Virus record (IMG/VR): IMGVR_UViG_3300022752_005533
Location: 1-37,864 of that record
DNA from: a virus
DNA: 37,864 nucleotides
Direction: 5' to 3' (one strand)
Position numbers and translations under genes: made by a program. Numbering within the stretch: position 1 is the first letter of the stretch; every line of letters starts with the position of its first letter. Positions 4,201 through 37,114 of this stretch are shown here, in pieces. The notes beneath the pieces are model-generated. The model worked only from the letters and a program-made list of their open reading frames with translations, was not told the origin of the DNA and did no database searches.

Positions 4201-4614
4201 TTACTTTTTCTTACCAATATTATACTTAGTTTGTAATTCCCAGTTATTCTTTTCTTTAAAAGAAATTACTTTTATTTGAGAAAGTGGTGCTGTGTCTGTA
4301 AAATTTTTAGCTTCATTTATAGTAACCAGTCCCCAATCAACTAGTAAATTGGCAATAGTATTCCTTCTTTGTAAATCATTATCTGTAAGATCTGCATGTT
4401 TACCATCTAAGGCAAACAGTTCCTTAAAATGTACTATATAGTATCTACCTTGCTTATGTAAAATATGGCATGATTGATAAAGAATTTTATCGCTTCTTGA
4501 AGCCACCCCAATACGTGTAAGTGTTTCTCTAACCTTTAAGAAATCGTCAGGGTGCACAAGGGTTACTTCAAGTGGAGTATAACCAGGAAAATCTATTTTG
4601 AAAACATCATCCAT
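4201..4614 (-). CDS. regA: RegA translational repressor
   Basis: 137 residues. The stretch DDFLKVRETLTRIGVAS, then LYQSCHILHKQGRYYIVHFKE, then RRNTIANLLVDWGLV and the closing KVISFKEKNNWELQ...YNIG match T4 RegA closely in order and spacing. RegA binds the start-codon regions of early phage mRNAs, including those for gp44 and gp45, and blocks ribosome loading. It is slightly longer than T4 RegA (122 aa), mostly from a short N-terminal extension. The start overlaps the end of gene 62, as in the T4 order 45-44-62-regA. Confidence 0.95.
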   Translation of the reverse strand: MDDVFKIDFPGYTPLEVTLVHPDDFLKVRETLTRIGVASRSDKILYQSCHILHKQGRYYIVHFKELFALDGKHADLTDNDLQRRNTIANLLVDWGLVTINEAKNFTDTAPLSQIKVISFKEKNNWELQTKYNIGKKK

Positions 4615-5101
4615 TTCTACCGCCTTTTGATAATCTTGTTTTTATTATTTCAATTTGAAAGTCATCGAGAAGTGATAGAACTTGGCGAGCCTTTTCTGTG
4701 CTATAACCATAGTATTCTTTTATTATCTCGATCTTATCAATTTTTTCAGACTTAATCCATTTATTAAATCTTTTCTTGGCTCTCACTGTATTTATTAAAA
4801 AAGAAAATTGTAGTTTCTTTTCCAAATGAGGTCTAGAATTCATCTCATTAGCAGGTATAACTGTATCAGGTCCAAAAGATAATCCTTTATTTACAATGTA
4901 AGGGTTATATTGTTTTTCTGTCCAATCATCAACTATAAGATTTTCTTTAGAAAAATGAATTGCATTTATAAAATCAAAAGGCGTAAAATGTATTTCTGTT
5001 ATTTCTGAGTCTGTTTGTATTCTAGTTAGAGTATCTCCGAAAATATCTTTAGGGTTAGTTTTTTTATCTTCTATAGAATTATTCTTCTTTTTGCTTGTCA
5101 T
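4607..5101 (-). CDS. 62: Clamp loader small subunit gp62
   Basis: 164 residues. The core YNPYIVNKGLSFGPDTVI, then ANEMNSRPHLEKKLQF and FLINTVRAKKRFNKWIK are characteristic of T4-type gp62. One gp62 joins four gp44 subunits to form the ATP-driven loader of the gp45 clamp onto primer-template junctions. The gene overlaps gp44 by an ATGA junction and regA by 8 bases, so 44-62-regA are probably co-translated. It is a little shorter than T4 gp62 (187 aa). No nucleotide-binding motif is expected or seen. Confidence 0.92.
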   Translation of the reverse strand: MTSKKKNNSIEDKKTNPKDIFGDTLTRIQTDSEITEIHFTPFDFINAIHFSKENLIVDDWTEKQYNPYIVNKGLSFGPDTVIPANEMNSRPHLEKKLQFSFLINTVRAKKRFNKWIKSEKIDKIEIIKEYYGYSTEKARQVLSLLDDFQIEIIKTRLSKGGRNG

Positions 5102-6039
5102 TTTATTTCAACAGAAGCCATAATCTCAGTAAGACAAGCAACTAGATTTATTTCTTGATCCGCAACAAATGCAGATTTATACTGATAATCTGCTAGTATG
5201 AGAACAAGTTGGGGAATTTGCACAACGTCATTAGAAAGATGATCATATATTTTTCTAATGATGGAAGTAGGATCATTATCAAGATTATTTGTGACCCAAG
5301 AGCGCATGGACTTCCAGTCTTTATCCTTCAATGCATTTTTAAGTATATTTAGATTATCCTCACTTAAATTAACTAAAATACCCTCATCTATCTTACCCGA
5401 TACTGAATATCTTTGTAATTCGTTCAATACCCTTCTATAATCGGGAAAATGTTTTTCAATAACTTTAGCAATTACCTTTAGATCACATTCAATTTTTTCA
5501 ATTTGTAAAATTTGTTTTACTCTATTGAAAAACTTAGCCATAATCTTAGGTTTATCCTCTTTTGTAATTTTAAATTCAAAGACAGCGCATCTAGAATGCA
5601 GTGGAGCAATTATTCTATTTTTAAAATTACAAGTAAAAATAAATCTACAATTGGCAGAGAACTCCTCGATAAATGCTCGTAATGCGGGTTGAGTAGAATT
5701 CGGATTAAGATAATCTGCCTCGTCTAAAATTACAACTTTAGTTTTTCCACTAAAAGAAACTGTCGAGGCAAATTGCTTTATTTTAGTTCGAAGTACATCA
5801 ATCCCCGATTCCTCGGAACCGTTAATAATAATATAATCTGTATTTAATTCTTCGCAAAGTGCTCTAGCTACTGTAGTTTTTCCTACACCAGAGGAACCAC
5901 ATAGTAACATATTTTGAATCTCGCCTCTATGCAGCATTTCTCTAAACATTAGTTTTTGAGATTCGGGTAAAATACAATCATCTAATTTTTTTGGTCGGTA
6001 CGCCTCAACCCAAAGAAATTGATTTTCATTTCGTTCCAT
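5098..6039 (-). CDS. 44: Clamp loader ATPase gp44
   Basis: 313 residues, AAA+ ATPase of the clamp-loader clade. Walker A is GSSGVGKTT (48-56), Walker B VVILDEAD (102-109), sensor 1 TCN (136-138) and the SRC arginine-finger motif is at 149-151. The opening FLWVEAYRPKKLDDCILP is the standard start of gp44/RFC-like subunits. It forms the gp44(4)-gp62(1) complex that opens the gp45 ring. Upstream, instead of gp45 directly, lies a glycosyltransferase-like gene (6061-6885), so the usual 45-44 adjacency is interrupted. Confidence 0.95.
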   Translation of the reverse strand: MERNENQFLWVEAYRPKKLDDCILPESQKLMFREMLHRGEIQNMLLCGSSGVGKTTVARALCEELNTDYIIINGSEESGIDVLRTKIKQFASTVSFSGKTKVVILDEADYLNPNSTQPALRAFIEEFSANCRFIFTCNFKNRIIAPLHSRCAVFEFKITKEDKPKIMAKFFNRVKQILQIEKIECDLKVIAKVIEKHFPDYRRVLNELQRYSVSGKIDEGILVNLSEDNLNILKNALKDKDWKSMRSWVTNNLDNDPTSIIRKIYDHLSNDVVQIPQLVLILADYQYKSAFVADQEINLVACLTEIMASVEIK

Positions 6040-6908: not shown

Positions 6909-7565
6909 TTATACCACAGAATCCGGTTCCATTGCTATAAAATATTCTATGTCTTTAGTTTCATGTTTAAAATGCAATAACTTCTTTTTAGAAATAGTAA
7001 TAGTATAGGCATCGGGTATCACTTTAAAATTTTCCACTGCAACATGACAATCGAAATCCTCTAAACCAGTACCGATACTTTTCTTATAAGTGTTCGCAGT
7101 ATCATTTTTTTTATCTCCAATAGTTAAAACAACTTGCTGATGTTTACAAACAACGGAAATTGTAGGAGCAGCTGTAATTGCTGCAGCTTTCATAATCATT
7201 TGAACATCTTCTGCAGATAATTTAAACTGAAAATGATTATCTACCTCAATTGTTTTGTCCGGAGCGGCAATAATTACAGTTGGGCTGGAGTAAAAGTATT
7301 CAAATTTTCCACCATCTTTTGAAATAGTAAGAGATTTATCGCCGAATTCCACATTTTGATTTTCCATCAATGTTAATAAGGCTAGCAACGAATTTAGATC
7401 GTAGATAGGTACTTCAACTGGAAAATCCTCAATAACATTGGCTTTAGCAAAAATATTTTTTGCTGTACTAATTGTTGATAAAGCTTTTCCTTTACGAATA
7501 AGAATATTGCTGTTAATACTTGCAAAATTCTTTAAAATATCAATTGTTTCTTTACTAATCTGCAT
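6909..7565 (-). CDS. 45: Sliding clamp gp45
   Basis: 218 residues from the start at 7565 (MQISKETIDILKNFASINS), which aligns with the known T4 gp45 start (MKLSKDTTALLKNFATINS). An in-frame ATG 18 bases upstream lies inside the preceding gene, and AAGGAT is spaced for 7565. IYDLNSLLALLTLM is the conserved IYDLNxxLxxLxL strand. Gp45 is a trimeric ring that tethers the polymerase and, in T4, activates late transcription through gp55 and gp33. In this window two modification enzymes (31707-33002, 33978-35330) carry a C-terminal peptide that may bind it. Confidence 0.93.
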   Translation of the reverse strand: MQISKETIDILKNFASINSNILIRKGKALSTISTAKNIFAKANVIEDFPVEVPIYDLNSLLALLTLMENQNVEFGDKSLTISKDGGKFEYFYSSPTVIIAAPDKTIEVDNHFQFKLSAEDVQMIMKAAAITAAPTISVVCKHQQVVLTIGDKKNDTANTYKKSIGTGLEDFDCHVAVENFKVIPDAYTITISKKKLLHFKHETKDIEYFIAMEPDSVV

Positions 7566-7566
7566 A

Positions 7567-7884
7567 TTAAATATCCTTATCATCTATCAAAGTTAACTTT
7601 GATATATTTGGTTTTACTTCTAAATCATGAACATGTAACATTATCAAAGCATAGTGTAAAATTTTTAAAATATCTTTTCTGTTTCTACCATCTTTTTTTC
7701 CATATCTTTGACAATATTTCATTATGTTGCCTACAGTATGGCCAATTCCATGACCAGCATCAATAATGAATTCTGTAGTTTGTATATTTCCTCGTGCATA
7801 ATGTTCTGTATACGTACTATCAACGTAAAGTTTTAATTGATTTATTAGAACATCCTCATTATATTTGTAATTTATTTTTTCCAT
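7567..7884 (-). CDS. DUF3310 family protein
   Basis: 105 residues. The core GNIQTTEFIIDAGHGIGHTVGN followed by IMKYCQRYGKKDGRNRKDILK and a terminal helix fits DUF3310, a small helical family common in phages (pattern IQTxEfI...GNvxKYxxRxgkK). It has sometimes been labelled a nucleotide kinase-like protein, but no function is established. It lies directly upstream of gp45 with one base between its stop and the clamp start, so it is probably co-expressed with the replication genes. Confidence 0.7.
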   Translation of the reverse strand: MEKINYKYNEDVLINQLKLYVDSTYTEHYARGNIQTTEFIIDAGHGIGHTVGNIMKYCQRYGKKDGRNRKDILKILHYALIMLHVHDLEVKPNISKLTLIDDKDI

Positions 7885-8591
7885 GGTAAATTTCCATAAT
7901 GCTTTTTCATAAGTCTGTTGCCTTCAATAAAAAATGCAGGACTAACAGAATCGGCTCTATTGCCTGCTCTATAGTTTACAGTATAAAAACCTGTCACATT
8001 ACATCTTATTTTATTATCTTTTAAAGTACTTGTCAATATCCTGTCAATCTCAGGTTGATCTTCTGAATGTCTAGCTCGTCTAAACCATAACGGGGATAGT
8101 TGTAATGCTATTTTTTTAGGTAAAAAGAAACAGTTAACATCTACAAAATAATCACCTATTACAGATTTCCAATTACCTAAACTTTCGCAATCATCATTAC
8201 AAATATAGTTGCCATTCATATCTGTTATTTTTCTCAAAGAACAAGAAAAGGATATCTGATCAGATACATCTACTAAACTTTGTACATGGTTCGGATCTAT
8301 CCAGTTATCCTCATCCAAATACATTATATAGTCACCTTTTGCAAAATAGGTACAACCTCCATAAATTCGATGACCATTGTATTGTTCAGTACCCGTGGCA
8401 TATGGCAAAACAATAAGATCTTCTTTTCCTGATAGTTGTTTTGTGACCTTATCTAAATGATGCCTACCATCTACGACAACTAAATGTTGTAATTTTATGT
8501 TATTAGAAATTGACTGTCCTTCGACAGATACTAAATTATCTTTCAAATAGTTAGCACCTGTTGTGGCTGTAATAATAGTAACAGTTGTCAT
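7872..8591 (-). CDS. GT2-type glycosyltransferase
   Basis: 239 residues. VTIITATTGANYLKDNLVSV is the opening GT-A strand-helix; QHLVVVDGRHHLDKV follows, and YIMYLDEDNWIDPNHV carries the metal-binding D-E-D of GT2 enzymes (about residues 93-95). The C-terminal part has SEDQPEIDRIL. Members transfer sugars from nucleotide donors to glycans, lipids or proteins. It is the left-most enzyme of the glycan island (7872-19562). Neither donor nor acceptor can be read from the sequence. Confidence 0.8.
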   Translation of the reverse strand: MTTVTIITATTGANYLKDNLVSVEGQSISNNIKLQHLVVVDGRHHLDKVTKQLSGKEDLIVLPYATGTEQYNGHRIYGGCTYFAKGDYIMYLDEDNWIDPNHVQSLVDVSDQISFSCSLRKITDMNGNYICNDDCESLGNWKSVIGDYFVDVNCFFLPKKIALQLSPLWFRRARHSEDQPEIDRILTSTLKDNKIRCNVTGFYTVNYRAGNRADSVSPAFFIEGNRLMKKHYGNLPWKK

Positions 8592-28618: not shown

Positions 28619-29125
28619 TTAGATAAGTATTTCATTCCAATGTCTGTGTCCTTCTCTATATGCCATATTAGATTGTGTTTCCCTTACTTCTACTCTAAAA
28701 CACCATAATCTTTCTGCTTCACCTGGACCCCACATATCTGGAATATAAACTCCGTTGACATATCTATAGAGCATATCAGCTAACCCTTCACATCCTAATC
28801 TAGGCAAAATAGTTAGCTTAGCCATTTTCTTTTCTTGTAATAGTTTAAATGTTTCTAGTTCAGGATCGTCCTCTGCAACTAGTAGAGTATGGTCAAACTG
28901 ATCTTCAAGAATTTTCTTTAGTTCTTTAAGTCCGCCATAGTCTGCTGCCCAGTTACGAACATCTAGGTCATCAGTTCCGAAGTAAAACTTCATACTAAAG
29001 CTATAACCATGAATCATATTGCAATGACTATCTGCTCTCCATTGTCTATATGCGCAGGGAAATGCATCATGGTATTCTTTTGTACTAACGTATTTGTATG
29101 GATGTGGTAAATTGATATAAGCCAT
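28619..29125 (-). CDS. queD: QueD-like 6-carboxytetrahydropterin synthase
   Basis: 168 residues. SHCNMIHGYSF is the CxxxHGH motif with Cys35 and His39, but the last His is Tyr41; FPCAYRQW stands where FxAAHxx has its first zinc His. QFDHTLLV supplies the Asp78-His79 pair and VEVRET the Glu149. QueD converts 7,8-dihydroneopterin triphosphate, the FolE product, to 6-carboxytetrahydropterin. The catalytic Cys/Asp/His are kept while two zinc ligands look replaced. A second QueD-like gene (31330-31710) shows the reverse pattern. Related HGY forms occur in marine T4-like phages, from memory. Confidence 0.8.
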   Translation of the reverse strand: MAYINLPHPYKYVSTKEYHDAFPCAYRQWRADSHCNMIHGYSFSMKFYFGTDDLDVRNWAADYGGLKELKKILEDQFDHTLLVAEDDPELETFKLLQEKKMAKLTILPRLGCEGLADMLYRYVNGVYIPDMWGPGEAERLWCFRVEVRETQSNMAYREGHRHWNEILI

Positions 29126-29184: not shown

Positions 29185-30177
29185 TTAAGACCGCTTATTT
29201 AATTTCTTAAAGATATCGGATTGATACCATTGGTGCAAATTTTTTACAATCATAGCCATGGATCTTTGTGCTTTCCAACCAGTAGCTATCTGAAATTTAG
29301 TGGGATCAGCAATTAATATTGCTGGATCGCCTTCTCTTTTAGGGGCAACATTAACAACTATATTTTTATTTAAAAAAATTTCTACTTGTTCTAAACATTC
29401 TAAATTTGATGTACCTTTTAAAGTGCCTAAATTATATATACCCACAGTATCATTTTCAATACATTGTATATGAGCTTCGGCTATATCCGATACATGTAGA
29501 TAATCTCTAATACATGTTTGATCTTTGGTGTGATAGTTAGAACCATATAAGGTAAAAGCAGTATCATTTAAAGCGCATTCAAATAATTTAGCAAAAATAT
29601 GCGATGCTCCTGGTTCTTGTCCGTGAATAGATTCAAAATCTGCACCACAAGCATTGAAATATCGTAATGAGACATACTTTAGACCAAAAATTTTATGATA
29701 CCAACTAAGAATTTTTTCTACCATCAGTTTAGTTTCTCCATATGGAGAAACGGGAAAGGTATCATTATATTCTCTATATGGCTCTCTACTCCAATTACCA
29801 TAAACTGCAGCACTACTACTAAAAATAAATTTAGTTGCTATCAATTCATCTTTTATAAAATCAAGTAATCTGTTTGTCTTTGCTATATTATTATCAAAAT
29901 ATGTTCCAGGCGAAATAAAACTTGGATCAACTAAACTTGATCCGGCACAATGAATAATAGTAGTAGGATTTGCTTTTTTTAATAAAAGAAAAGACTTGTA
30001 ATCTATGAAATCACCTTGATAAAACTCATCATAATATTTATCTAAATGCGAGGTATATCTCTTATCTACTCCAAAAACATTATAACCTTTTCTTTTCAAC
30101 TCTATGCAAGTGATGCCTCCAATATAACCAGCAGCACCAGTAACAACTACATTTTTAGAATTTAGATTGTGGGACAT
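29185..30177 (-). CDS. GalE-like nucleotide-sugar epimerase
   Basis: 330 residues from the ATG at 30177 (MSHNLNSKN); a GTG 39 bases upstream would extend it inside the previous gene and is less likely. VVVTGAAGYIGG is the NAD-binding loop, FSSSAAVYGN holds the catalytic Ser, PYGETKLMVE the Tyr-x-x-x-Lys, and SLRYFNACGAD is the UDP-glucose 4-epimerase signature. It should interconvert UDP-hexoses (for example UDP-Glc and UDP-Gal). It lies within the DNA-modification island next to a GT-B enzyme, so it could supply a sugar donor to that enzyme. Confidence 0.88.
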   Translation of the reverse strand: MSHNLNSKNVVVTGAAGYIGGITCIELKRKGYNVFGVDKRYTSHLDKYYDEFYQGDFIDYKSFLLLKKANPTTIIHCAGSSLVDPSFISPGTYFDNNIAKTNRLLDFIKDELIATKFIFSSSAAVYGNWSREPYREYNDTFPVSPYGETKLMVEKILSWYHKIFGLKYVSLRYFNACGADFESIHGQEPGASHIFAKLFECALNDTAFTLYGSNYHTKDQTCIRDYLHVSDIAEAHIQCIENDTVGIYNLGTLKGTSNLECLEQVEIFLNKNIVVNVAPKREGDPAILIADPTKFQIATGWKAQRSMAMIVKNLHQWYQSDIFKKLNKRS

Positions 30178-31327
30178 AATTTCTATACCTATTATTGCCT
30201 CTATACCATTTTTCACCTGTCTGATTATCTATCATAATATCTATACAACGATCAATGGTGCCATTAGTCCAATCTGACATTTTACCTAGATTTGTTCTTA
30301 GATTATTAAGTAAATGAATTAGTTTTCTTTCTGCATCTTCAATTGACCAAGGAATATATAAACATTCCGAATCATTGGCAAAAGATTCTGGAAAACTTCT
30401 ATAAGCAGGATATAAACAATTTGTGCCAAGTGCATCTGCTTCTGAGGCTGTATTTGATACCCAATCTTGTAAAGCACAATTAAATAAAATTCTACTATCT
30501 GCTAGTATTTCATAATACTCGTTTTTCTTTAGATTCTCATATATTTTTAATTTACCTTGAGCTTCTAAATTTCTAGCACGTTCTAAATACCCATCATCAT
30601 TACTACGTAATGGTCCACCAGATAATACACAGAATTCAGTATTAGTATAATTTGTTACTCTCTCGACTAAATCCATAAAAAATCCGGGTTGTTTTTCCTG
30701 ATCGAATCTCGCAGCAAAGCAAACACGTCGTTTACGATCAAAGAAATTTTTTCTATTAGGTACTCGAGATTGTACTTCTTCTTTACCAAAAGCGAGACCA
30801 GAAATATTGTAGATCGGAACATTCCAACCTGCAATCTTCATATGTGCTACCATTTCTTCATTAGATGCTAGAACCCCTGTTACAAAATGATTAATCATAT
30901 GTTCATAGTTTCGCATCCAATCTTGCATGTCCCAGACATGCAAAAAGTCATCAGGATCAATTGTCTGAGCTAAGCATCTAACCCAAATTTGAGGCCTAAA
31001 CTCTGTAGTTGTTTGATCCATAATATAGGGTAAAGCTTCCATACCTGGAGTAAACATATCCTCAAAGAAAATAGTATCTTCCCAAGTTACTTCACCGGCC
31101 TTCATCTTTGCCACAAGTTTAGCCATCTGAGTCAAAGAATAATAACTACGACCATGCGCATCTAACACCTGCCCTGTTACGATAGACTTGGATGTATCTA
31201 ATAGTTCACCATGAATTACCTCGTAGTTAATACCACGTCGCTTAAATACAGCCTCACTCCATTGCTGAAGCTGTAAAGTGTATCTGCCCTCATACGGCTC
31301 TAAACCGCAATACCATAATTTACGCAT
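30155..31327 (-). CDS. GT-B glycosyltransferase beside the QueD-like and DpdA genes
   Basis: 390 residues. It opens WYCGLEPYEGRYTLQLQQW; the middle has HVWDMQDWMRNYEHM and VTGVLASNEEMV, as in GT4-like proteins; the donor domain begins RRVCFAARFDQEKQPGFFMDLV and continues CVLSGGP, YYEILADSRILFN and SNTASEADALGTNCLYPAY, where the E-A dyad region of GT4 lies. It is flanked by the QueD-like gene and galE, with tight spacing to the former (2 bases). It may act on a glycan or on modified DNA; nothing in the sequence fixes the acceptor. Confidence 0.7.
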   Translation of the reverse strand: MRKLWYCGLEPYEGRYTLQLQQWSEAVFKRRGINYEVIHGELLDTSKSIVTGQVLDAHGRSYYSLTQMAKLVAKMKAGEVTWEDTIFFEDMFTPGMEALPYIMDQTTTEFRPQIWVRCLAQTIDPDDFLHVWDMQDWMRNYEHMINHFVTGVLASNEEMVAHMKIAGWNVPIYNISGLAFGKEEVQSRVPNRKNFFDRKRRVCFAARFDQEKQPGFFMDLVERVTNYTNTEFCVLSGGPLRSNDDGYLERARNLEAQGKLKIYENLKKNEYYEILADSRILFNCALQDWVSNTASEADALGTNCLYPAYRSFPESFANDSECLYIPWSIEDAERKLIHLLNNLRTNLGKMSDWTNGTIDRCIDIMIDNQTGEKWYRGNNRYRNYVPQSKF

Positions 31328-31329
31328 AA

Positions 31330-31710
31330 TTATCCTGGAAAATATTCAACAATGCCATCAGACTCACCATCTTCTGATACAACAATCTCATAGTACCTTT
31401 GACCATATTTAGGAATAAGATGTTGCTCTAGAATATCTGTGGCAATCATCTCACAAGATTTGTGATTCATATTGCCGCCTTTAATAAAATCTTGCAATGC
31501 CCATTTAACTAAAAAGAATTCTAATTCCCTGTCAAGGTGAGATACTGAAATTTTTACCTCAACTTTAAACATATGCCTATGTTCATTTTCAAGAAATGCA
31601 ATACGAGGATCAATTTGGCTCGCAATAGGATATCTATGATAGCCTTCAAACTCTGCACGAATCTTAATAAATGTTTCTGTACGAGGTCTAACGTCTTGTT
31701 TAATAATCAT
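31330..31710 (-). CDS. Second QueD-like (6-pyruvoyltetrahydropterin synthase fold) protein
   Basis: 126 residues. FEGYHRYP (His25) and EHRHMFKV (His44, His46) give the three zinc histidines of the T-fold; SCEMIATDIL resembles the PTxExxA helix and VVSEDGES the closing Glu. The catalytic Cys that precedes HxH in QueD is missing and no DH pair is clear. So this paralogue keeps zinc binding and seems to lack the QueD catalytic set, the opposite of 28619-29125. It overlaps the dpdA stop (ATGA), so it is translationally coupled to DpdA. Confidence 0.75.
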   Translation of the reverse strand: MIIKQDVRPRTETFIKIRAEFEGYHRYPIASQIDPRIAFLENEHRHMFKVEVKISVSHLDRELEFFLVKWALQDFIKGGNMNHKSCEMIATDILEQHLIPKYGQRYYEIVVSEDGESDGIVEYFPG

Positions 31711-33002
31711 GTAAATAAATCCTCTAATGATGAAGGTGGTTTATCAACTACCGATTCTGAATCCATAAATTTTCCGACTTCTTTTTCCCAATGTAGAAAA
31801 TCATCTAAATTCTTTATGTCAAATAATGAAGCATATTGATTTTCACAATCCTTATCTCTTGCAAATTTCAAAAATTGATCTTTAGATTGAGTTAATTCTG
31901 ATACATCTTTAGTAAAGTTATGAACATTGGTAAGAATAAATGATAATCTAGCACGCATAATATCAATAAATTTGCCGCCTTCTTCCAAGTATGCGGTAAC
32001 TTGTTTATTCATTAACTTGTGATATTCCTCGGGCGTATACTCTGTCCCACATACTGAATTGATTTCTTCTGTAACTGTTCTATAGATGTTAGAGTATTCC
32101 CTTCCCATCTTAACTGATGTGCCTCCATAAGCAGATCCTGGTGACTTTTTATAGTGAGAAAAGTAGAATAAACCATTATCAAGAGACATAGAATGAGTAG
32201 TAGAATCGTAAGATAAATCAATCTCATCATACAACCCCGTTTGACTAAAAAGAATATAAGGTAGCATGCGCCTAAGAGCACCTACTCCTAGAACGTGAAG
32301 ATGAAAAGGTCTGCTAAACGGCATTAATGTTACATAAAATGCTCGTTTCACATCTTCTAATTGTCCCATACCTAGAGCAGCTGACCCCATGGCTACTCCA
32401 CCTATTCTATCATGTAATGGTTCAGATACTTCTCGAAGAATCGTTTCCGCCCATTGTTGATATGTTTGATGGGAAGCACCATGCATAATAACGAATGGCC
32501 TGCAAATAGATTTTAGTTCAATAAATTTCTCAATCTGTGCTCTGACATTCTTACCAGTCTGTGTAGCATACGCATCAAAATTTTCTCTATCAAAATATCT
32601 ACGCTTCGTATCAATTTTAGAGGATTTTCCATCCCGTGTTGCCTTAACAGGAATTTCATCAAATGCCATACCTATATCCGCGTATGTTCCTTGATTGGTG
32701 TAAACCTTATCTCTAATCTCAGGTGTATTTTGTAATCCCCTAGTGATTATTTGTAGTCCACCAGAGTCAGCATGAATTTGTTTAACTGCTGGCCTATATT
32801 TTTGAAGTTTAGGTCCAAAATTCTTTTCAGTAAACCCATTATATAAAAGAGAGAACGTATGATTATTTTGATTATGGCAAGTCTTAAGAATAAGACTATT
32901 AATCATATCAAGAGTCTCTGGATCGTTGCATTGGTCCGCCCCTAGGCGAAGATATGCCGGGCCAGAAATTGTGTACTCGAAGATTTTTTGTTTCTTTTGC
33001 AT
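31707..33002 (-). CDS. dpdA: DpdA, DNA guanine transglycosylase
   Basis: 431 residues, TGT superfamily. QIHADSGGLQIITRG holds the base-binding Asp79 (DSGGxQ of TGT); AMGSAALGMGQ and HLHVLGVGALRRMLPY match the GG-x-G and HxLGxG steps of the barrel; YDEIDLSYDSTTHS carries the candidate nucleophile Asp (262 or 266). The TGT zinc site is not apparent, as in phage DpdA. DpdA exchanges guanine in DNA for a 7-deazaguanine. FolE, QueD-like, QueE genes lie in the same island. The C-terminus ends SSLEDLFT, shared with the GT at 33978-35330. It is divergent from the homing endonuclease upstream. Confidence 0.88.
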   Translation of the reverse strand: MQKKQKIFEYTISGPAYLRLGADQCNDPETLDMINSLILKTCHNQNNHTFSLLYNGFTEKNFGPKLQKYRPAVKQIHADSGGLQIITRGLQNTPEIRDKVYTNQGTYADIGMAFDEIPVKATRDGKSSKIDTKRRYFDRENFDAYATQTGKNVRAQIEKFIELKSICRPFVIMHGASHQTYQQWAETILREVSEPLHDRIGGVAMGSAALGMGQLEDVKRAFYVTLMPFSRPFHLHVLGVGALRRMLPYILFSQTGLYDEIDLSYDSTTHSMSLDNGLFYFSHYKKSPGSAYGGTSVKMGREYSNIYRTVTEEINSVCGTEYTPEEYHKLMNKQVTAYLEEGGKFIDIMRARLSFILTNVHNFTKDVSELTQSKDQFLKFARDKDCENQYASLFDIKNLDDFLHWEKEVGKFMDSESVVDKPPSSLEDLFT

Positions 33003-33019
33003 TACAAAAACCGCTTTTT

Positions 33020-33027
33020 TATAAATA
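33020..33027 (+). promoter_or_regulatory. T4-type late promoter for the homing endonuclease
   Basis: Exact TATAAATA on the plus strand, 105 bases before the GIY-YIG start at 33132, in the divergent gap 33003-33131. T4 homing endonuclease genes such as I-TevI use late promoters in the same way. Confidence 0.55.
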
Positions 33028-33037
33028 ATATTGGCTG

Positions 33038-33066
33038 GTTAGGGAATTGCTCGAACAATTCCCAAC
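33038..33066 (+). other. Inverted repeat in the divergent gap
   Basis: GGGAATTG (33042-33049) and CAATTCCC (33056-33063) are perfect complements with a 6-base loop CTCGAA; GTT and AAC extend the stem past one bulged A. It lies just downstream of the plus-strand late promoter and between the dpdA start and its candidate minus-strand promoter. It could be an operator, a leader hairpin for either transcript or a nuclease recognition site. Confidence 0.6.
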
Positions 33067-33096
33067 AAGAGGTCAAGTTCTTGCTGTCCCAGTCTA

Positions 33097-33125
33097 AGTT
33101 TAACATCTTTTTATATATAGGTCAA
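33097..33125 (-). promoter_or_regulatory. Candidate promoter for the dpdA transcript
   Basis: Minus strand: TTGACC (33120-33125), 17-base spacer, TAAACT (33097-33102). One mismatch in the -35 and two in the -10. It is the best such site in the gap upstream of dpdA and lacks the TTGCTTGACA form of the three strong promoters. Confidence 0.45.
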
Positions 33126-33131
33126 GAAAAA

Positions 33132-33989
33132 ATGAACCAACGTATTCCATATTTCTATATTATTCGCCACATTTCCACCGGCAAAATGTATGCTGGTTCA
33201 AGATGGGGTAAGAATTGTCATCCAGATGATCTACTAGTAACATACAAAACTCATAGTAATAAAATTAAAAATATCATAAAAACTGAAGGAATAAAGTCTT
33301 TCGATATTCTTAGAACTGATTCTAATTGCGATGGTCTACATCCATATGAATATGAGAAATCTTTTCTAGAAATAAATGATTGTGCTAATTCAGATAATTG
33401 GTTTAATGGACACAATAATCATTTATTTGTATATGGTACTGAGGAATATAAACAATTTATGCTTAAAAAGTATGGTGTAGATAATCCAAATAAAATTCCT
33501 GGGATACAAGAAAAAATTAAAAATACTAAAAAATTTAGGAATACACAATATCAAGAAAAACGTAAACAAACATCTTTAAAAAAATATGGTGTCGACCATC
33601 ATATGAAAAGTGAATCTTTTATGGTAAAATATCGAGAAACTATAAAAAATAAAACCGGATTTTATAATAATTCTCATAATCCTCTTATCAAAGAAAAACT
33701 TAGTAAAGCTAATAAAGGTAAAATTTTACTTTTTAACACTATCACTAACGAAAAAATATTGGTAAAAAAAGATTCAGATGAGTATAAATCATTGGATCTT
33801 TCTATTTGGAAAAACAAAAATGCTAATACTAAGTGGGTACATTGCCCCATTCTTAAAACTAAAAAGATGATTAGAACTGACGAATTGGATTATTATCTTT
33901 CTATTGGTTTTAAAGCGGGGGTTGGTTCTTTTTCCGCAGAGCATAAACTTAAAATATCCAACGCCCACAAATCAAGATTATGCAAATAA
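33132..33989 (+). CDS. GIY-YIG homing endonuclease
   Basis: 285 residues from the ATG at 33132 (MNQRIPYFYIIRH); the frame is open further upstream but would include the promoter and hairpin. YFYIIRHISTGKMYAGSRWG is the GIY-YIG nuclease start, followed by DDLLVTYKTHSNKIK as in Seg/I-Tev type enzymes and a Glu in the YEYEKSFL helix. Two KKYGVD repeats (about 113 and 153) and KEKLSKANKGK (NUMOD3-like) form the DNA-binding tail. It is the only plus-strand gene in the 35 kb to its left and right, and separates dpdA from the AGT-like gene. Its 3' end overlaps the latter by 12 bases, as expected for a free-standing selfish insertion. Confidence 0.85.
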   Translation: MNQRIPYFYIIRHISTGKMYAGSRWGKNCHPDDLLVTYKTHSNKIKNIIKTEGIKSFDILRTDSNCDGLHPYEYEKSFLEINDCANSDNWFNGHNNHLFVYGTEEYKQFMLKKYGVDNPNKIPGIQEKIKNTKKFRNTQYQEKRKQTSLKKYGVDHHMKSESFMVKYRETIKNKTGFYNNSHNPLIKEKLSKANKGKILLFNTITNEKILVKKDSDEYKSLDLSIWKNKNANTKWVHCPILKTKKMIRTDELDYYLSIGFKAGVGSFSAEHKLKISNAHKSRLCK

Positions 33990-35330
33990 ATCCTCTAAGC
34001 TTCCTTTAGTGTTTTCTTCTCGGGGAACAAAATGCTTTTCTTTTGATAGATAAGTATGCTCATCAGTATAAATTATATTATACTTATGCTTGTTTGTCAA
34101 TACACTTTTTATATCTTCTATAGCCAAATTTTTTCTATTTAAATCTTTAATAAAATCTAAGTATTTTACAGTAGTATATTCGTTTATTTTCGCCGCATCA
34201 GAATTAGATATTGAACTTGATTTGTAATTATCTAAAAAGTCTACCCATTTTTCAGCAGTATTAATGTCAAGTTCTTTTACATATTCTAAAGCGCCACCTG
34301 CATTTGAATTATATAGTGCCTTAATTGCTTCTCCAGCTTTATCAATGGAAACTCTAGTATACAATTCTTTACTAAAATTGGTTACCCATTCAGATTTATC
34401 TAATACTACGCAAGGCATATGCCCAAGACACTCAAAGAATGTAAATGGATAATTTTCTCTGAGAGATGGGTTGAAATGAACCTTTGAGGATCGAATAAAA
34501 TCTACCTTTTCTTTCCCTACAATTCCCGCCTTCATTTCAAAATTAGTAATACCTAGTTCAGCTAATCTTGCTTCAAATTTTTTCTTACCATTACTATTAG
34601 TAATAATTTTTGCAGGCAGGCCTGTCTCTTTTATTACCTTAAGAAATGCTTCAGGGTTTTTACGTTCTTCCCATCTACCAATGTATAATACTCCAGACTT
34701 CTCCCCATTATATGGTTCAAGTAGTTCTCGTTCGGACATAGGCATTGGCAACAGAATAGCATGGTTACATCCATTCGATTTTAATTCATCTACATTACGA
34801 GGGGATTGAGTACCAACAAAGGCATGGTCTACTGTCATTAGTCTAATAAAAAATTCATTGCAACTTTCAGTAAATACACCTTTAAATTTTCTGGTATCTC
34901 TAAATACCATAGACTCTTCATGAGTATAAAACACGACTGGTATATTTCTACCTAAATCTAATGCGAATGCCGCAGGCATAGATTCCATGGAATTGCAAAT
35001 AACCATATCATAAAAATTTTTAGAAAACGCAATCATTAATGCTCTTCTAAAATTAATGATCTTTTCAAAATTTATTGAATCTGAAAATGCAAACGTGCCA
35101 GTATGCTCTGAATAAGAATTTGAATTTGATGGATAAACTAAAGATGCGCCGAACCCCTCTACTATGGAACTAAAACCCCCGGTTGGGGCCTTATCCATGA
35201 TAATATCAACCTTCCATCTGAGATTTTTTGCCATCTCAGTAAAGCCTTTGGCAAATTGACCAATTCCCCCGTGTGCGACTAAATGCTGGTCGCTAATGCA
35301 AAATGCTATTCTTTTATCGTAAAGTTTCAT
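33978..35330 (-). CDS. GT-B glycosyltransferase, candidate DNA (AGT-like) glycosyltransferase
   Basis: 450 residues. GGIGQFAKGFTEMAKNLRW opens a GT-B fold; VVFYTHEESMVFRDTRKF recalls the VVVYQHDHS stretch of T4 alpha-glucosyltransferase, and GVLYIGRWEERKNPEAFLKV the WIGRTTTWKG stretch. NPSLRENYPFTFFECLGHMPCVV carries the GT4-type donor-site Glu pair. It overlaps folE (ATGA) and shares with DpdA the C-terminal peptide SLEDLF (here SLEDLFA). Ordinary glycan transferases could show the same fold. The operon position with folE and dpdA and the shared tail make DNA a reasonable acceptor, but this is inference. Confidence 0.7.
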   Translation of the reverse strand: MKLYDKRIAFCISDQHLVAHGGIGQFAKGFTEMAKNLRWKVDIIMDKAPTGGFSSIVEGFGASLVYPSNSNSYSEHTGTFAFSDSINFEKIINFRRALMIAFSKNFYDMVICNSMESMPAAFALDLGRNIPVVFYTHEESMVFRDTRKFKGVFTESCNEFFIRLMTVDHAFVGTQSPRNVDELKSNGCNHAILLPMPMSERELLEPYNGEKSGVLYIGRWEERKNPEAFLKVIKETGLPAKIITNSNGKKKFEARLAELGITNFEMKAGIVGKEKVDFIRSSKVHFNPSLRENYPFTFFECLGHMPCVVLDKSEWVTNFSKELYTRVSIDKAGEAIKALYNSNAGGALEYVKELDINTAEKWVDFLDNYKSSSISNSDAAKINEYTTVKYLDFIKDLNRKNLAIEDIKSVLTNKHKYNIIYTDEHTYLSKEKHFVPREENTKGSLEDLFA

Positions 35331-36064
35331 TTCATTTTATGAATAATACTAAAAAATTCTTGTTTAAGATGAGGATCATTTCTAAATGCTCCTCTCATAA
35401 CAGAAGTAGTCATGTCTGACTCATGTTCCTTAACTCCTCTGTGAGTCATGCAATGATGCTCGGCCTGCACTAGTACAGCAACACCATCGGCCTGCGTTTC
35501 ACTTTCAATAGCATCAGCAATCTGTACGGTCATTTCTTCCTGAATCTGCGGACGAGAAGCAATCCAATCCGTGATACGATTAAATTTACTAAGGCCGATA
35601 ACATTCTTCCCCGGAAATACGCCAATATAGGCTTTACCAACAATGTTTTGAAAATGATGGGCACATGTGCTCCTAATAGTAATTGGACCTGTTACATACA
35701 ATTCATCATACTCAGTCACATTAGGAAATGCTGTAACTTTAGGCGGATTCGCATAACGACCCCTAAATGTTTCTTTTACAAACATCTTAGCAACACGACG
35801 AGCTGTGTCTTGAGTGTTATGATCGTTCTTTGTATCAATAACTAAAGAACGAAGTACTCCTTGAAACTGCTCTGCTACTTCTTCAACAAGTGCATCTATT
35901 TCATGCTCATGCTTTATACATGCTGAAATATTATCATTGGCGAAAAATCTAGAATTGTTTTGCGTTAATCTTTCTCGAATCACTTCACTCATGGGTCTTT
36001 CAAATACTGCGCATTCATAACCAGGATGGTATGGTGCTTCTTCAACTAATTTATTCATAGTCAT
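35327..36064 (-). CDS. folE: GTP cyclohydrolase I
   Basis: 245 residues. STCAHHFQNIVGKAYIGVFP holds zinc ligands Cys134 and His137; GLSKFNRITDWIASRPQIQE and QIADAI follow, and AEHHCMTHRGV gives the third ligand Cys205. It converts GTP to 7,8-dihydroneopterin triphosphate, first step to 7-deazaguanines. The usual CEHH is CAHH here, so the Glu next to the ligand Cys is lost. The N-terminal 60 residues have no obvious homology. The start is ATG at 36064 or 36058; both overlap the small gene upstream. It feeds QueD and QueE of this island. Confidence 0.92.
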   Translation of the reverse strand: MTMNKLVEEAPYHPGYECAVFERPMSEVIRERLTQNNSRFFANDNISACIKHEHEIDALVEEVAEQFQGVLRSLVIDTKNDHNTQDTARRVAKMFVKETFRGRYANPPKVTAFPNVTEYDELYVTGPITIRSTCAHHFQNIVGKAYIGVFPGKNVIGLSKFNRITDWIASRPQIQEEMTVQIADAIESETQADGVAVLVQAEHHCMTHRGVKEHESDMTTSVMRGAFRNDPHLKQEFFSIIHKMK

Positions 36065-36254
36065 TTAATACCTTTGCCAATTTTTTTATCTCATCTTTGT
36101 TCATAAAAAATTCATATGTATTTCTAATTAGAATATTTTCTTTACTATCAATTTCTTCTCGTATGAAATGAAGCACTTTAGTTTCATCTGGAGCTTTACA
36201 GTCTCCTATAAGAACATACATTTTAAATCCACCTCGGTCTACAATTTTCATCAT
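36051..36254 (-). CDS. Small protein between QueE and FolE, 67 aa
   Basis: The ATG at 36254 overlaps the QueE stop (ATGA) with GGGGA upstream; a longer start at 36263 and a shorter one at 36251 are possible. The product has a beta start (FKMYVLIGDC), an acidic centre and a helical KDEIKKLAKVLNDYE end. It resembles no family I know. Its strict placement between queE and folE suggests an accessory role in the pathway, but nothing in its sequence shows one. Confidence 0.55.
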   Translation of the reverse strand: MMKIVDRGGFKMYVLIGDCKAPDETKVLHFIREEIDSKENILIRNTYEFFMNKDEIKKLAKVLNDYE

Positions 36255-37114
36255 GTTCCCCATTCATTTTTAAACAATGGCACCTGAAGTCTGTCTGAAT
36301 AACGCCAGCCTTTTTTCATGGCCATCAAGGCTACGTTTTTATTATTCATGACGTAAACAGATTCTACACCACCAACAGGCATTAGATATACTGGACCCTT
36401 AAATCCATGATCTCTGTAGCACTCGACTGCCATTTCGGCTTCGGCAACATCGAATTCATTGGCTACAACGAATTTTAAATAAGCATAACCATGTTCTTCA
36501 TACTGCAGAACAATTTCTGGTTTGATGGCATCTTCCCATCTTTCGCCGCTAACACTTAGCTTGGGACTAATACTAAAAGTAAGACGATCCCAACCTTTGC
36601 GCCAGTGTGTCTTTAAATACTCGGAAAATTCAGGTATTAGTTCCTGTGTTCCGTTGGTTTCGAACGTAAGCTCTTGTAGATCGACCATGCCCGAGTGCGA
36701 TAAAAGCGTCGGGTATGCTTTTTGCCAGCCAAGAAGTGGTTCTCCTCCTGTAATAACCAGATGTTCACTTGTCCACTTACCATGAGGTAGCAAACGTAGA
36801 ATGGCATCAACAATACCATCAATGGAATCATTTATAGCGTATTTTTTAAATTCTGGATATATAGAATTATAACTATCGCAACCTGTACGAACTAAAGGCA
36901 AATCCTTCAAAGTTTTATAATTACCAATATTCTTTATTACTTGTTCAACTTCTGGGTTTATTTTTTCCCCCGCAGGTATGTCTTGTAATTTCCTATTAAA
37001 ATTTTTACAACGAAAATTACAACCAAACGTTCTTAAAAATACACTAGGAACGCCCATATAACGTCCCTCGCCTTGTATTGAATAAAATAATTCTGATACT
37101 TTAATTTTGTTCAT
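36251..37114 (-). CDS. queE: QueE, 7-carboxy-7-deazaguanine synthase (radical SAM)
   Basis: 287 residues. It begins VSELFYSIQGEGRYMGVPSV, the QueE opening. The cluster cysteines are split: GCNFRC gives Cys32 and Cys36, but the third position is not in CxxC; TGCDSYNS with Cys79 is the counterpart of the canonical WCDT, so the motif is CX3CX42C with a 43-residue insert. LVITGGEPLL, FETNGT and FSISPKLSVSG are typical QueE motifs for SAM and substrate. It makes CDG from the QueD product. The fold and all other motifs support QueE. Confidence 0.88.
   Translation of the reverse strand: MNKIKVSELFYSIQGEGRYMGVPSVFLRTFGCNFRCKNFNRKLQDIPAGEKINPEVEQVIKNIGNYKTLKDLPLVRTGCDSYNSIYPEFKKYAINDSIDGIVDAILRLLPHGKWTSEHLVITGGEPLLGWQKAYPTLLSHSGMVDLQELTFETNGTQELIPEFSEYLKTHWRKGWDRLTFSISPKLSVSGERWEDAIKPEIVLQYEEHGYAYLKFVVANEFDVAEAEMAVECYRDHGFKGPVYLMPVGGVESVYVMNNKNVALMAMKKGWRYSDRLQVPLFKNEWGT

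Follow-up and report, generated by a model that had tools for sequence, protein, structure and literature searches.

SLEDLF tails of a phage DpdA and a glycosyltransferase as probable clamp-interacting peptides

A DpdA2-type enzyme and a glycosyltransferase (GT) encoded in IMG/VR virus record IMGVR_UViG_3300022752_005533 end in the same hexapeptide, SLEDLF, followed by one residue. The record is 37,864 bases long and carries a T4-type gene set; we refer to this entire stretch as the window. Judging from sequence comparison, the two ends are very probably peptides that bind gp45, the sliding clamp. The best reading is that they represent clamp-interacting peptides (CIPs) of the T4 polymerase type, and that DpdA and the GT would be clients of gp45. 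As the two enzymes are read as such clients, base exchange and probably glycosylation would follow the replication fork, that is, enzymes that decorate DNA probably ride on the replication machinery. The features concerned are as follows.

31707..33002, minus strand: dpdA (DpdA2 type), 431 amino acids; homology to phage DpdA2, phrog_10773 (unknown function)
31713..31730, minus strand: C-terminal SLEDLF tail of DpdA, residues 425-430 of 431; from the translation, kept in 77/77 complete relatives
33978..35330, minus strand: GT with GT-B fold, GT4-like, 450 amino acids; from alignment, AlphaFold2 model and structure matches
33984..34001, minus strand: C-terminal SLEDLF tail of the GT, residues 444-449 of 450; from the translation, L-E-x-L-F in 25/25 non-redundant GTs
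6909..7583, minus strand: gp45 sliding clamp, putative partner of both tails; PF09116 (E 2e-7), phrog_223 (E 4e-65), RB69/T4 gp45 in PDB

The shared tail in the window and among its relatives

The C-terminus of DpdA is DKPPSSLEDLFT (PPSSLEDLFT) and that of the GT is ENTKGSLEDLFA (TKGSLEDLFA), and both gene ends carry the same 15 bases, TTAGAGGATTTATTT. The translations and the bases thus bear out the original prediction, which had given the two ends as SSLEDLFT and GSLEDLFA with 15 identical bases; its further claim that the proteins are otherwise unrelated agrees with a best BLASTP match between them of only E 2.0. When the pooled tails of 47 open reading frames (ORFs) of the window were shuffled, a hexapeptide in common within the last nine residues arose in 23 of 20,000 trials, with the caveat that the window has a second shared terminal hexapeptide, WFKENK, on the products of two genes judged homologous by eye, and that the ORF sets of several relatives likewise contain shared terminal hexapeptides. 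Since real ORF sets have shared ends too, the pair of DpdA and GT on its own is suggestive, and we therefore place the weight on comparative data. The tail is absent from the gp55-like protein of the window, which ends in NTLDIN.

Relatives were collected from IMG/VR with search peptides that excluded the tail, yielding 14 GT loci and the best 80 of 91 DpdA loci. All of the 77 DpdAs that reach their stop, i.e., without the truncated copies of L088, L096, and L099, end in [ST]LE[DEGN]LF plus one residue. The ORFs upstream of dpdA end in [S/T/G/N]LExLF plus one residue, again in 77 of 77 cases (L021, L070, and L087 lack the upstream ORF and are left out of this count); 71 of these ORFs are GT homologues with 47.5 to 99.8% identity to the window GT, and six are unrelated to it. 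The tail was also found on 13 of the 14 GT loci. A chance origin of the tails is unlikely and was rejected in view of this conservation in 77/77 DpdAs and 77/77 upstream ORFs.

Many of the loci are near-duplicates (L020, for instance, shares 11.9 kb with the window at 98.8% identity), and representatives were chosen by clustering: 25 GTs at 93% identity from 68 ORFs, and 18 DpdAs at 90% from the 77. Across the 25 GT representatives, the L, E, L, and F of the tail are invariant and use two to four codons each. The linker before the GT tail is variable, the commonest residue accounting for 24-56% at positions -8 to -17, figures that come from a right-justified alignment with no gaps and exaggerate the variability. 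A divergent linker also precedes the tail of gp55 (PMC2988020; published work is cited throughout from excerpts of the papers). The segment preceding the DpdA tail is fairly conserved, and the linker argument is thus weaker for DpdA.

In six DpdA loci (the L085 group), the slot of the GT is occupied by an unrelated ORF of 300 amino acids, for which BLASTP against the GT stayed at E 1.1 or above and which nonetheless bears a tail, KSSLESLFL. A separate search with this ORF returned eight loci, and the seven complete ones were all tailed and beside DpdA. The replacement is probably a glycosyltransferase, as its sequence matches two annotated phage glycosyltransferases by tblastn, those of the Sinorhizobium phage Phosso and of DSL-LC06 (E 1e-9 and 6e-8), the two relatives that the phage collection yielded, and has a weak PHROG match (E 0.044), and as the relative in Phosso has a weak TAGT match (E 0.026). 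The AlphaFold2 model of the 300-residue protein had a predicted local distance difference test score (pLDDT) of 45.6 and was not used, and its PDB matches (ribosome-inactivating proteins and ABC ATPases; best E 0.0057) were weak and taken as chance.

Polymerase tails and the gp45 pocket

No polymerase was recognised among the ORFs of the window, so that the polymerase tail was checked in relatives only. PF00136 was matched in 14 of the 26 related contigs searched, and in 13 of these 14 the polymerase ends in [TS]LEGLF[GSAE]; the similar tail that the original prediction looked for in the phage polymerase is thus found in the relatives, which gives its clamp reading partial support. In the 14th contig, G012 (L113, 37103-40510), the matching frame has only 487 amino acids and a different end, and this polymerase is possibly split or interrupted. 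A scan of the other 13 contigs for [L/F]-[E/D]-x-[L/F]-F-x-stop picked up the ends of the gene upstream of dpdA, DpdA, and the polymerase in every contig, with zero to two other matches each.

We then ranked C-termini with a tail model built from polymerase tails only, the clade of the genome being ranked omitted. The ORF sets were mechanical picks rather than annotations, the ranking omits the DpdA of ACP17 (tail TTLDELFE), and the joined contigs omit 2,665 bases of G003 and 58 of X1. DpdA, the GT, and the polymerase are the top three in G003 (259 ORFs), G007 (277), G008 (282), G006 (149), and BUCT-ZZ01 (253). Among the 50 ORFs of the window, DpdA and the GT come first with 16.7 each, followed by an ORF with 3.4; in G007, the GT scores 10.3 and the next ORF 3.4. 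DpdA ranks second in Mendera (250 ORFs) and X1 (328 ORFs).

Beyond the clade of the window, we read DpdA ends in records of other phages. DpdA2 is tailed in five of the seven lineages read, namely the window clade, BUCT-ZZ01, ACP17, X1, and Mendera. In BUCT-ZZ01, whose GT shares 42% and whose DpdA shares 39% identity with the window counterpart, Phe-Phe (FF) replaces Leu-Phe (LF) in all three ends (polymerase STLDDFFS, DpdA ASLDSFFD, GT GSLEDFFND). The polymerase and DpdA end in SSLEDLFG and NSLDDLFG in Mendera, in SSLESLFG and QSLEELFG in X1, and in PSLDDLFE and TTLDELFE in ACP17. The LF or FF type of the DpdA tail, and of the GT tail where present, is that of the own polymerase in the five tailed lineages. 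The SLEDLF of the window recurs letter for letter in the polymerase of Mendera and in the split polymerase of the Acinetobacter phage Apostate (RSSLEDLFDF). X1 has a distant GT homologue (27% identity), located away from dpdA, in which no tail was found.

The likeness to clamp-binding tails of the T4 family, from which the original prediction started, holds: T4 gp43 ends in SLDFLFG, and gp55 has SLDFLYEAND near its end. In T4, gp45 accommodates 892-SLDFLF-897 in a hydrophobic pocket, and loss of the last six residues prevents association with the clamp (PMC12746103). Swapping the tails among gp43, gp55, and gp33 leaves clamp-dependent transcription intact in vitro (PMC2988020), and the concept of the sliding clamp-binding motif (SCBM) extends to DNA ligase (PMC7892883). 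The tails described here resemble these CIPs/SCBMs in being hydrophobic and acidic, in lying at the C-terminus as in gp43 (in gp55 the motif lies near the end), and in sharing the motif type of the phage's own polymerase. They differ in their carriers, which are the polymerase, late-transcription factors, ligase, and RNase H in the known cases (PMC2988020, PMC7892883, PMC3012046, as excerpted) and probable DNA-modification enzymes here.

A gp45-type clamp is present in the window and was matched in five of the seven records searched, with none in Phosso and DSL-LC06. The pocket of RB69 gp45 comprises Tyr39, Ile107, Phe109, Trp199, and Val217, together with Arg32 and Lys204 (PMC3012046), and the window clamp is hydrophobic at positions 39, 107, 109, and 217. 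In a first set of phages (the clamp of G009 is absent from the clamp alignments), clamps of phages with an LF polymerase tail have Tyr or Phe at residue 39, and those of phages with an FF tail have Val, Ala, or Ile there. This relation was spotted post hoc, and only a second set constitutes a fresh test. Nine phages were fetched, and P-SSM5, Sa157lw, and K356 were omitted as having no recognised polymerase in the clamp region. The rule, an aromatic residue 39 with LF and a non-aromatic one otherwise, holds in all six that remained: Tyr39 accompanies an LF polymerase tail in KFS-EC, Apostate, and Invicta, Ile39 accompanies FF and FL tails in S-PM2 and S-RIM44, and Met39 accompanies a CF tail in phiM7. 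As these phages are related to one another, we regard the match as support rather than proof.

Proposed mechanism and rival explanations

We propose that the flexible C-termini of DpdA2 and the GT would each occupy the hydrophobic pocket that gp43 uses on a gp45 protomer. The gp45 trimer trails the polymerase, and its spare protomers could hold DpdA and the GT. DpdA would swap guanine in the new DNA for 7-deazaguanine made by the phage, and the GT would then glycosylate a base, most likely the 7-deazaguanine. That DpdA and the GT would be coupled to the fork is plausible, as is a glycosylated 7-deazaguanine as the product in DNA. The broader idea that the clamp is a tool belt for hypermodification, on which DpdA2 and the GT make glycosylated 7-deazaguanine behind the fork and for which unrelated GTs separately gained a peptide for their own clamp, is a tentative one, in which doubt slightly outweighs confidence. 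The GTs meant are the GT4-like one of the window and, in the L085 group and Phosso, a probable GT of another kind. Dense, rapid, and selective modification of a phage's own DNA could be accounted for by a polymerase-type clamp tail on the modifying enzymes. Tails that match the own polymerase may also flag other DNA-acting enzymes, candidates being the GT of Phosso and a 135-residue protein, gp228, of the same phage.

Among the closest known systems, a parallel in function is the T4 alpha-glucosyltransferase, a DNA glycosyltransferase associated with the clamp (Sommer 2004, via PMC13216743). The enzyme, unlike the T4 beta-glucosyltransferase, co-purifies with gp45, and the predominance of alpha-glucosylation is mostly explained by expression, according to the excerpts of PMC13216743. 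The statement of the original prediction that this enzyme binds gp45 therefore stands in print, but the enzyme has no such tail, and we take it as a functional parallel with a different anatomy; it differs further in that the GT here is GT4-like and acts on DNA only putatively. The DpdA2 of Vibrio phage nt-1 and its KVP40 relative are homologous enzymes beside 7-deazaguanine genes (PMC6884629, as excerpted), of which that of KVP40 differs by lacking the clamp tail. The word 'clamp' does not occur in PMC6884629. Among the papers listed in searches of the open-licence literature, none was seen to link DpdA, tRNA-guanine transglycosylase (TGT), or a DNA glycosyltransferase to the clamp, and none to deal with glycosylated 7-deazaguanine in DNA. 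Eukaryotic DNMT1 is a DNA-modifying enzyme tied to PCNA by a PIP box. It is comparable as a DNA-modifying enzyme bound to a sliding clamp, and differs in that the proteins are unrelated, the motif lies at another position, and the methylation is of the maintenance type.

Several observations weigh against DpdA and the GT being clients of gp45. The reversed pattern, used as a control in the scan of the 13 contigs, gives zero to four matches per contig, so that what counts is the position at the three gene ends and not the number of matches. In the tail model, a fourth ORF of G008 comes close (12.1 against 14.4), and a baseplate-hub protein of Mendera scores 15.3; the motif score is thus no proof by itself, and we rejected it as such on these two cases (the G008 ORF at 12.1) together with an ORF of 125 amino acids in KVP40 that scores 15.0. 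The pocket is partly unkept in the window clamp, with Ile at 32, Ser at 199, and a gap at 204. The GT homologue of L018 (38% identical) has no tail; no DpdA match was found on its 16.6-kb contig, in a DpdA2-alignment search that also covered Phosso and DSL-LC06 and had no positive control alongside. Of the 70 phage records that matched DpdA, seven were read, and among these the DpdA2 of KVP40 and VS2 have no tail and that of pf16 has a degenerate one, VTLDLMCA (rank 8 of 238, score 0.9), although the polymerases of all three do carry a tail (ends reported as TLESFFG and SLEDFFS). DpdA and a polymerase show a BLASTP match of E 0.003, with 24% identity over 75 residues outside the tail, and the 300-residue ORF and a polymerase one of E 0.16; these are the pairs below 1 among the tail bearers. 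Finally, the T4 alpha-glucosyltransferase, of which the C-terminus is KEQFDIITK, lacks the tail, and the proportions of glucosylation are reported not to depend chiefly on its binding to gp45 (PMC13216743).

The last point would suit an alternative in which the tails bind gp45 as a locator of phage DNA, through clamps left on nicked or transcribed DNA, and not for coupling to the fork. The additional role of gp45 in late transcription and its sliding on DNA (PMC2988020) fit this alternative as well, while the tail is of the polymerase type, though the data do not separate use as a locator from use at the fork; we regard the explanation as unlikely but not negligible. The tails might instead bind a different partner, i.e., the host clamp DnaN, each other, or another phage protein, which we consider improbable. 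Ligands of DnaN carry a motif of the QLxLF type, and in Phosso, where gp45 is unmatched and the clamp is annotated as the beta type, the GT has QLSDLF. On the other hand, the tails mirror those of the own polymerase, down to the LF/FF difference of BUCT-ZZ01, and residue 39 of the clamp varies with the polymerase tail.

We give little credence to the view that these are normal structural ends of the proteins, made alike by convergence. The similar end of the baseplate-hub protein (GLEDFFG) and the conserved segment before the DpdA tail speak for it; against it, the GT tail follows a poorly conserved linker and belongs to the lowest-confidence parts of the GT model (pLDDT 51), and DpdA, the GT, the polymerase, and the 300-residue ORF have no significant BLASTP kinship bar the one short pair of DpdA and polymerase (E 0.003). 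The shared 15 bases might stem from a recent copying event between the ends of the two genes, the more so as an ORF with DUF7487, perhaps a mobile element, lies between the genes. Among the 25 GT and 18 DpdA representatives, however, codons and residues vary at both ends while the motif stays, and the distant polymerase gene has the tail as well. Copying is thus hardly credible, and we rejected it on account of this codon and residue diversity.

Enzyme identities, neighbouring genes, and similar ends elsewhere

The DpdA of the window is homologous to the DpdA2 of T4-like phages, including KVP40 and BUCT-ZZ01, and is 31.4% identical to the KVP40 homologue over query residues 7-369 (E 7e-49). 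Its best profile match to TGT structures reached only E 0.47, and no Pfam match was obtained; a likeness of DpdA2 to TGT by HHpred has been published, and the DpdA2 of nt-1 goes with a low level of modification, dPreQ0 being about 0.11% of G (PMC6884629). From its sequence kinship, we infer that the window dpdA encodes a base-exchange enzyme that inserts 7-deazaguanine into DNA.

The GT matches Glycos_transf_1 below the cut-off and has a profile match to 4pqg. Glu292 and Glu300 are invariant in the alignment, a spacing that we take to be the EX7E motif. Its AlphaFold2 model (pLDDT 85.7; 51 for residues 441-450) adopts the GT-B fold, with Foldseek/VIA matches to GT4 enzymes up to Z 28.7: TarM (Z 28.7), BshA, MshA, and tetrahydrobiopterin glucosyltransferases (up to Z 27.1). 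By the fold and the EX7E motif, the GT is of the GT4 retaining type. The structure matches do not name the acceptor, as the Z values are nearly tied; we infer a DNA base from the operon and the tail. The alpha- and beta-glucosyltransferases of T4 were not among the structural matches listed (the best 50 of each of two listings), an absence that carries no weight against a relation.

The other genes considered in the window are as follows; RegA and a gp55-like sigma were also recognised by family matches.

5098..6039, minus strand: gp44-like clamp loader subunit; sequence judged by eye and place beside gp45 and gp62, presumably following the T4 gene order
4607..5101, minus strand: gp62-like clamp loader subunit; phrog_225 (E 9e-40)
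35327..36064, minus strand: FolE, GTP cyclohydrolase I of the 7-deazaguanine precursor pathway; PF01227 (E 6e-51)
36251..37114, minus strand: QueE-like radical SAM enzyme; Fer4_12, and tblastn onto QueE-annotated genes of BUCT-ZZ01, ACP17, X1, and Mendera
28619..29125, minus strand: QueD-type enzyme of the 6-pyruvoyl tetrahydropterin synthase family; PF01242 (E 5e-15)
31330..31710, minus strand: ORF of 126 amino acids with no clamp tail; phrog_17812, tblastn match in 7/10 genomes compared
30155..31327, minus strand: second GT of the operon with no clamp tail, serving as a specificity control; PF00534 (E 2e-6), C-terminus NYVPQSKF
33138..33989, plus strand: ORF with DUF7487 between the GT and DpdA genes

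No QueC match was found in any of eight records (G001, G003, G005-G009, and BUCT-ZZ01), several of which are possibly incomplete, and 12 of 14 control genomes were positive. Relatives of FolE, QueD, QueE, and DpdA are present in the five of these records that were compared. As QueC is unmatched in all eight, the base is perhaps made with no QueC step, or the host may provide QueC.

The ORF of 126 amino acids contains VSEDGESDG and is possibly QueD-like; its matches lie near dpdA in the seven genomes mentioned, and it is also matched in L018. The family of the second GT, with an EPxExRYT-like start, is found in several lineages next to dpdA or to genes for 7-deazaguanine. No tail was seen in the six cases read (the window, BUCT-ZZ01, ACP17, X1, L085, and Phosso). 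Its members are located as follows.

Window, 30155-31327, minus strand
ACP17, gp124
X1, 71699-72859
BUCT-ZZ01, 65689-66855
Phosso, 150799-151890 (by eye)

The ORF with DUF7487 is possibly a homing endonuclease. A 975-nt gap holding such an ORF (99.6% and 73% identical) occurs in only L020 and L026 among the 77 loci.

In the two phages with annotated relatives of the 300-residue ORF, these GTs have tail-like ends. The Phosso GT ends in QLSDLFDFG, and the family-B polymerase of the same phage ends in FNDLFTF; among 724 mechanical ORFs of Phosso, ends with DLF[TD]F are found in three, namely the polymerase, the GT, and gp228. The last is a protein of 135 amino acids (PV764938, 153487-153894) that is encoded between folE-like and queE-like genes, ends in NDLFDFG, and is a possible clamp client. 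The Phosso clamp is annotated 'DNA polymerase III sliding clamp beta', and the gp45 search gave no match in this phage. Relatives of the Phosso GT were not found in the viral contigs searched, and a Pfam search for TGT was blank in Phosso but also in DpdA2 genomes, making it uninformative for this phage. In DSL-LC06, a phage of 29.8 kb, the GT (OR003941, 5477-6418) ends in FKDLFDEE; this tail is left unexplained, as neither a family-B polymerase nor gp45 was matched there.

Ends resembling a clamp tail also occur on proteins of other kinds. The baseplate hub of Mendera (by its annotation) and look-alikes in X1 and BUCT-ZZ01 have GLEDFFG-like ends.

Mendera, 40538-41299
X1, 84546-85328
BUCT-ZZ01, 7844-8554

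In KVP40, a hypothetical protein encoded at 60956-61303 has a clamp tail-like end, KTLDGLFFYNS.

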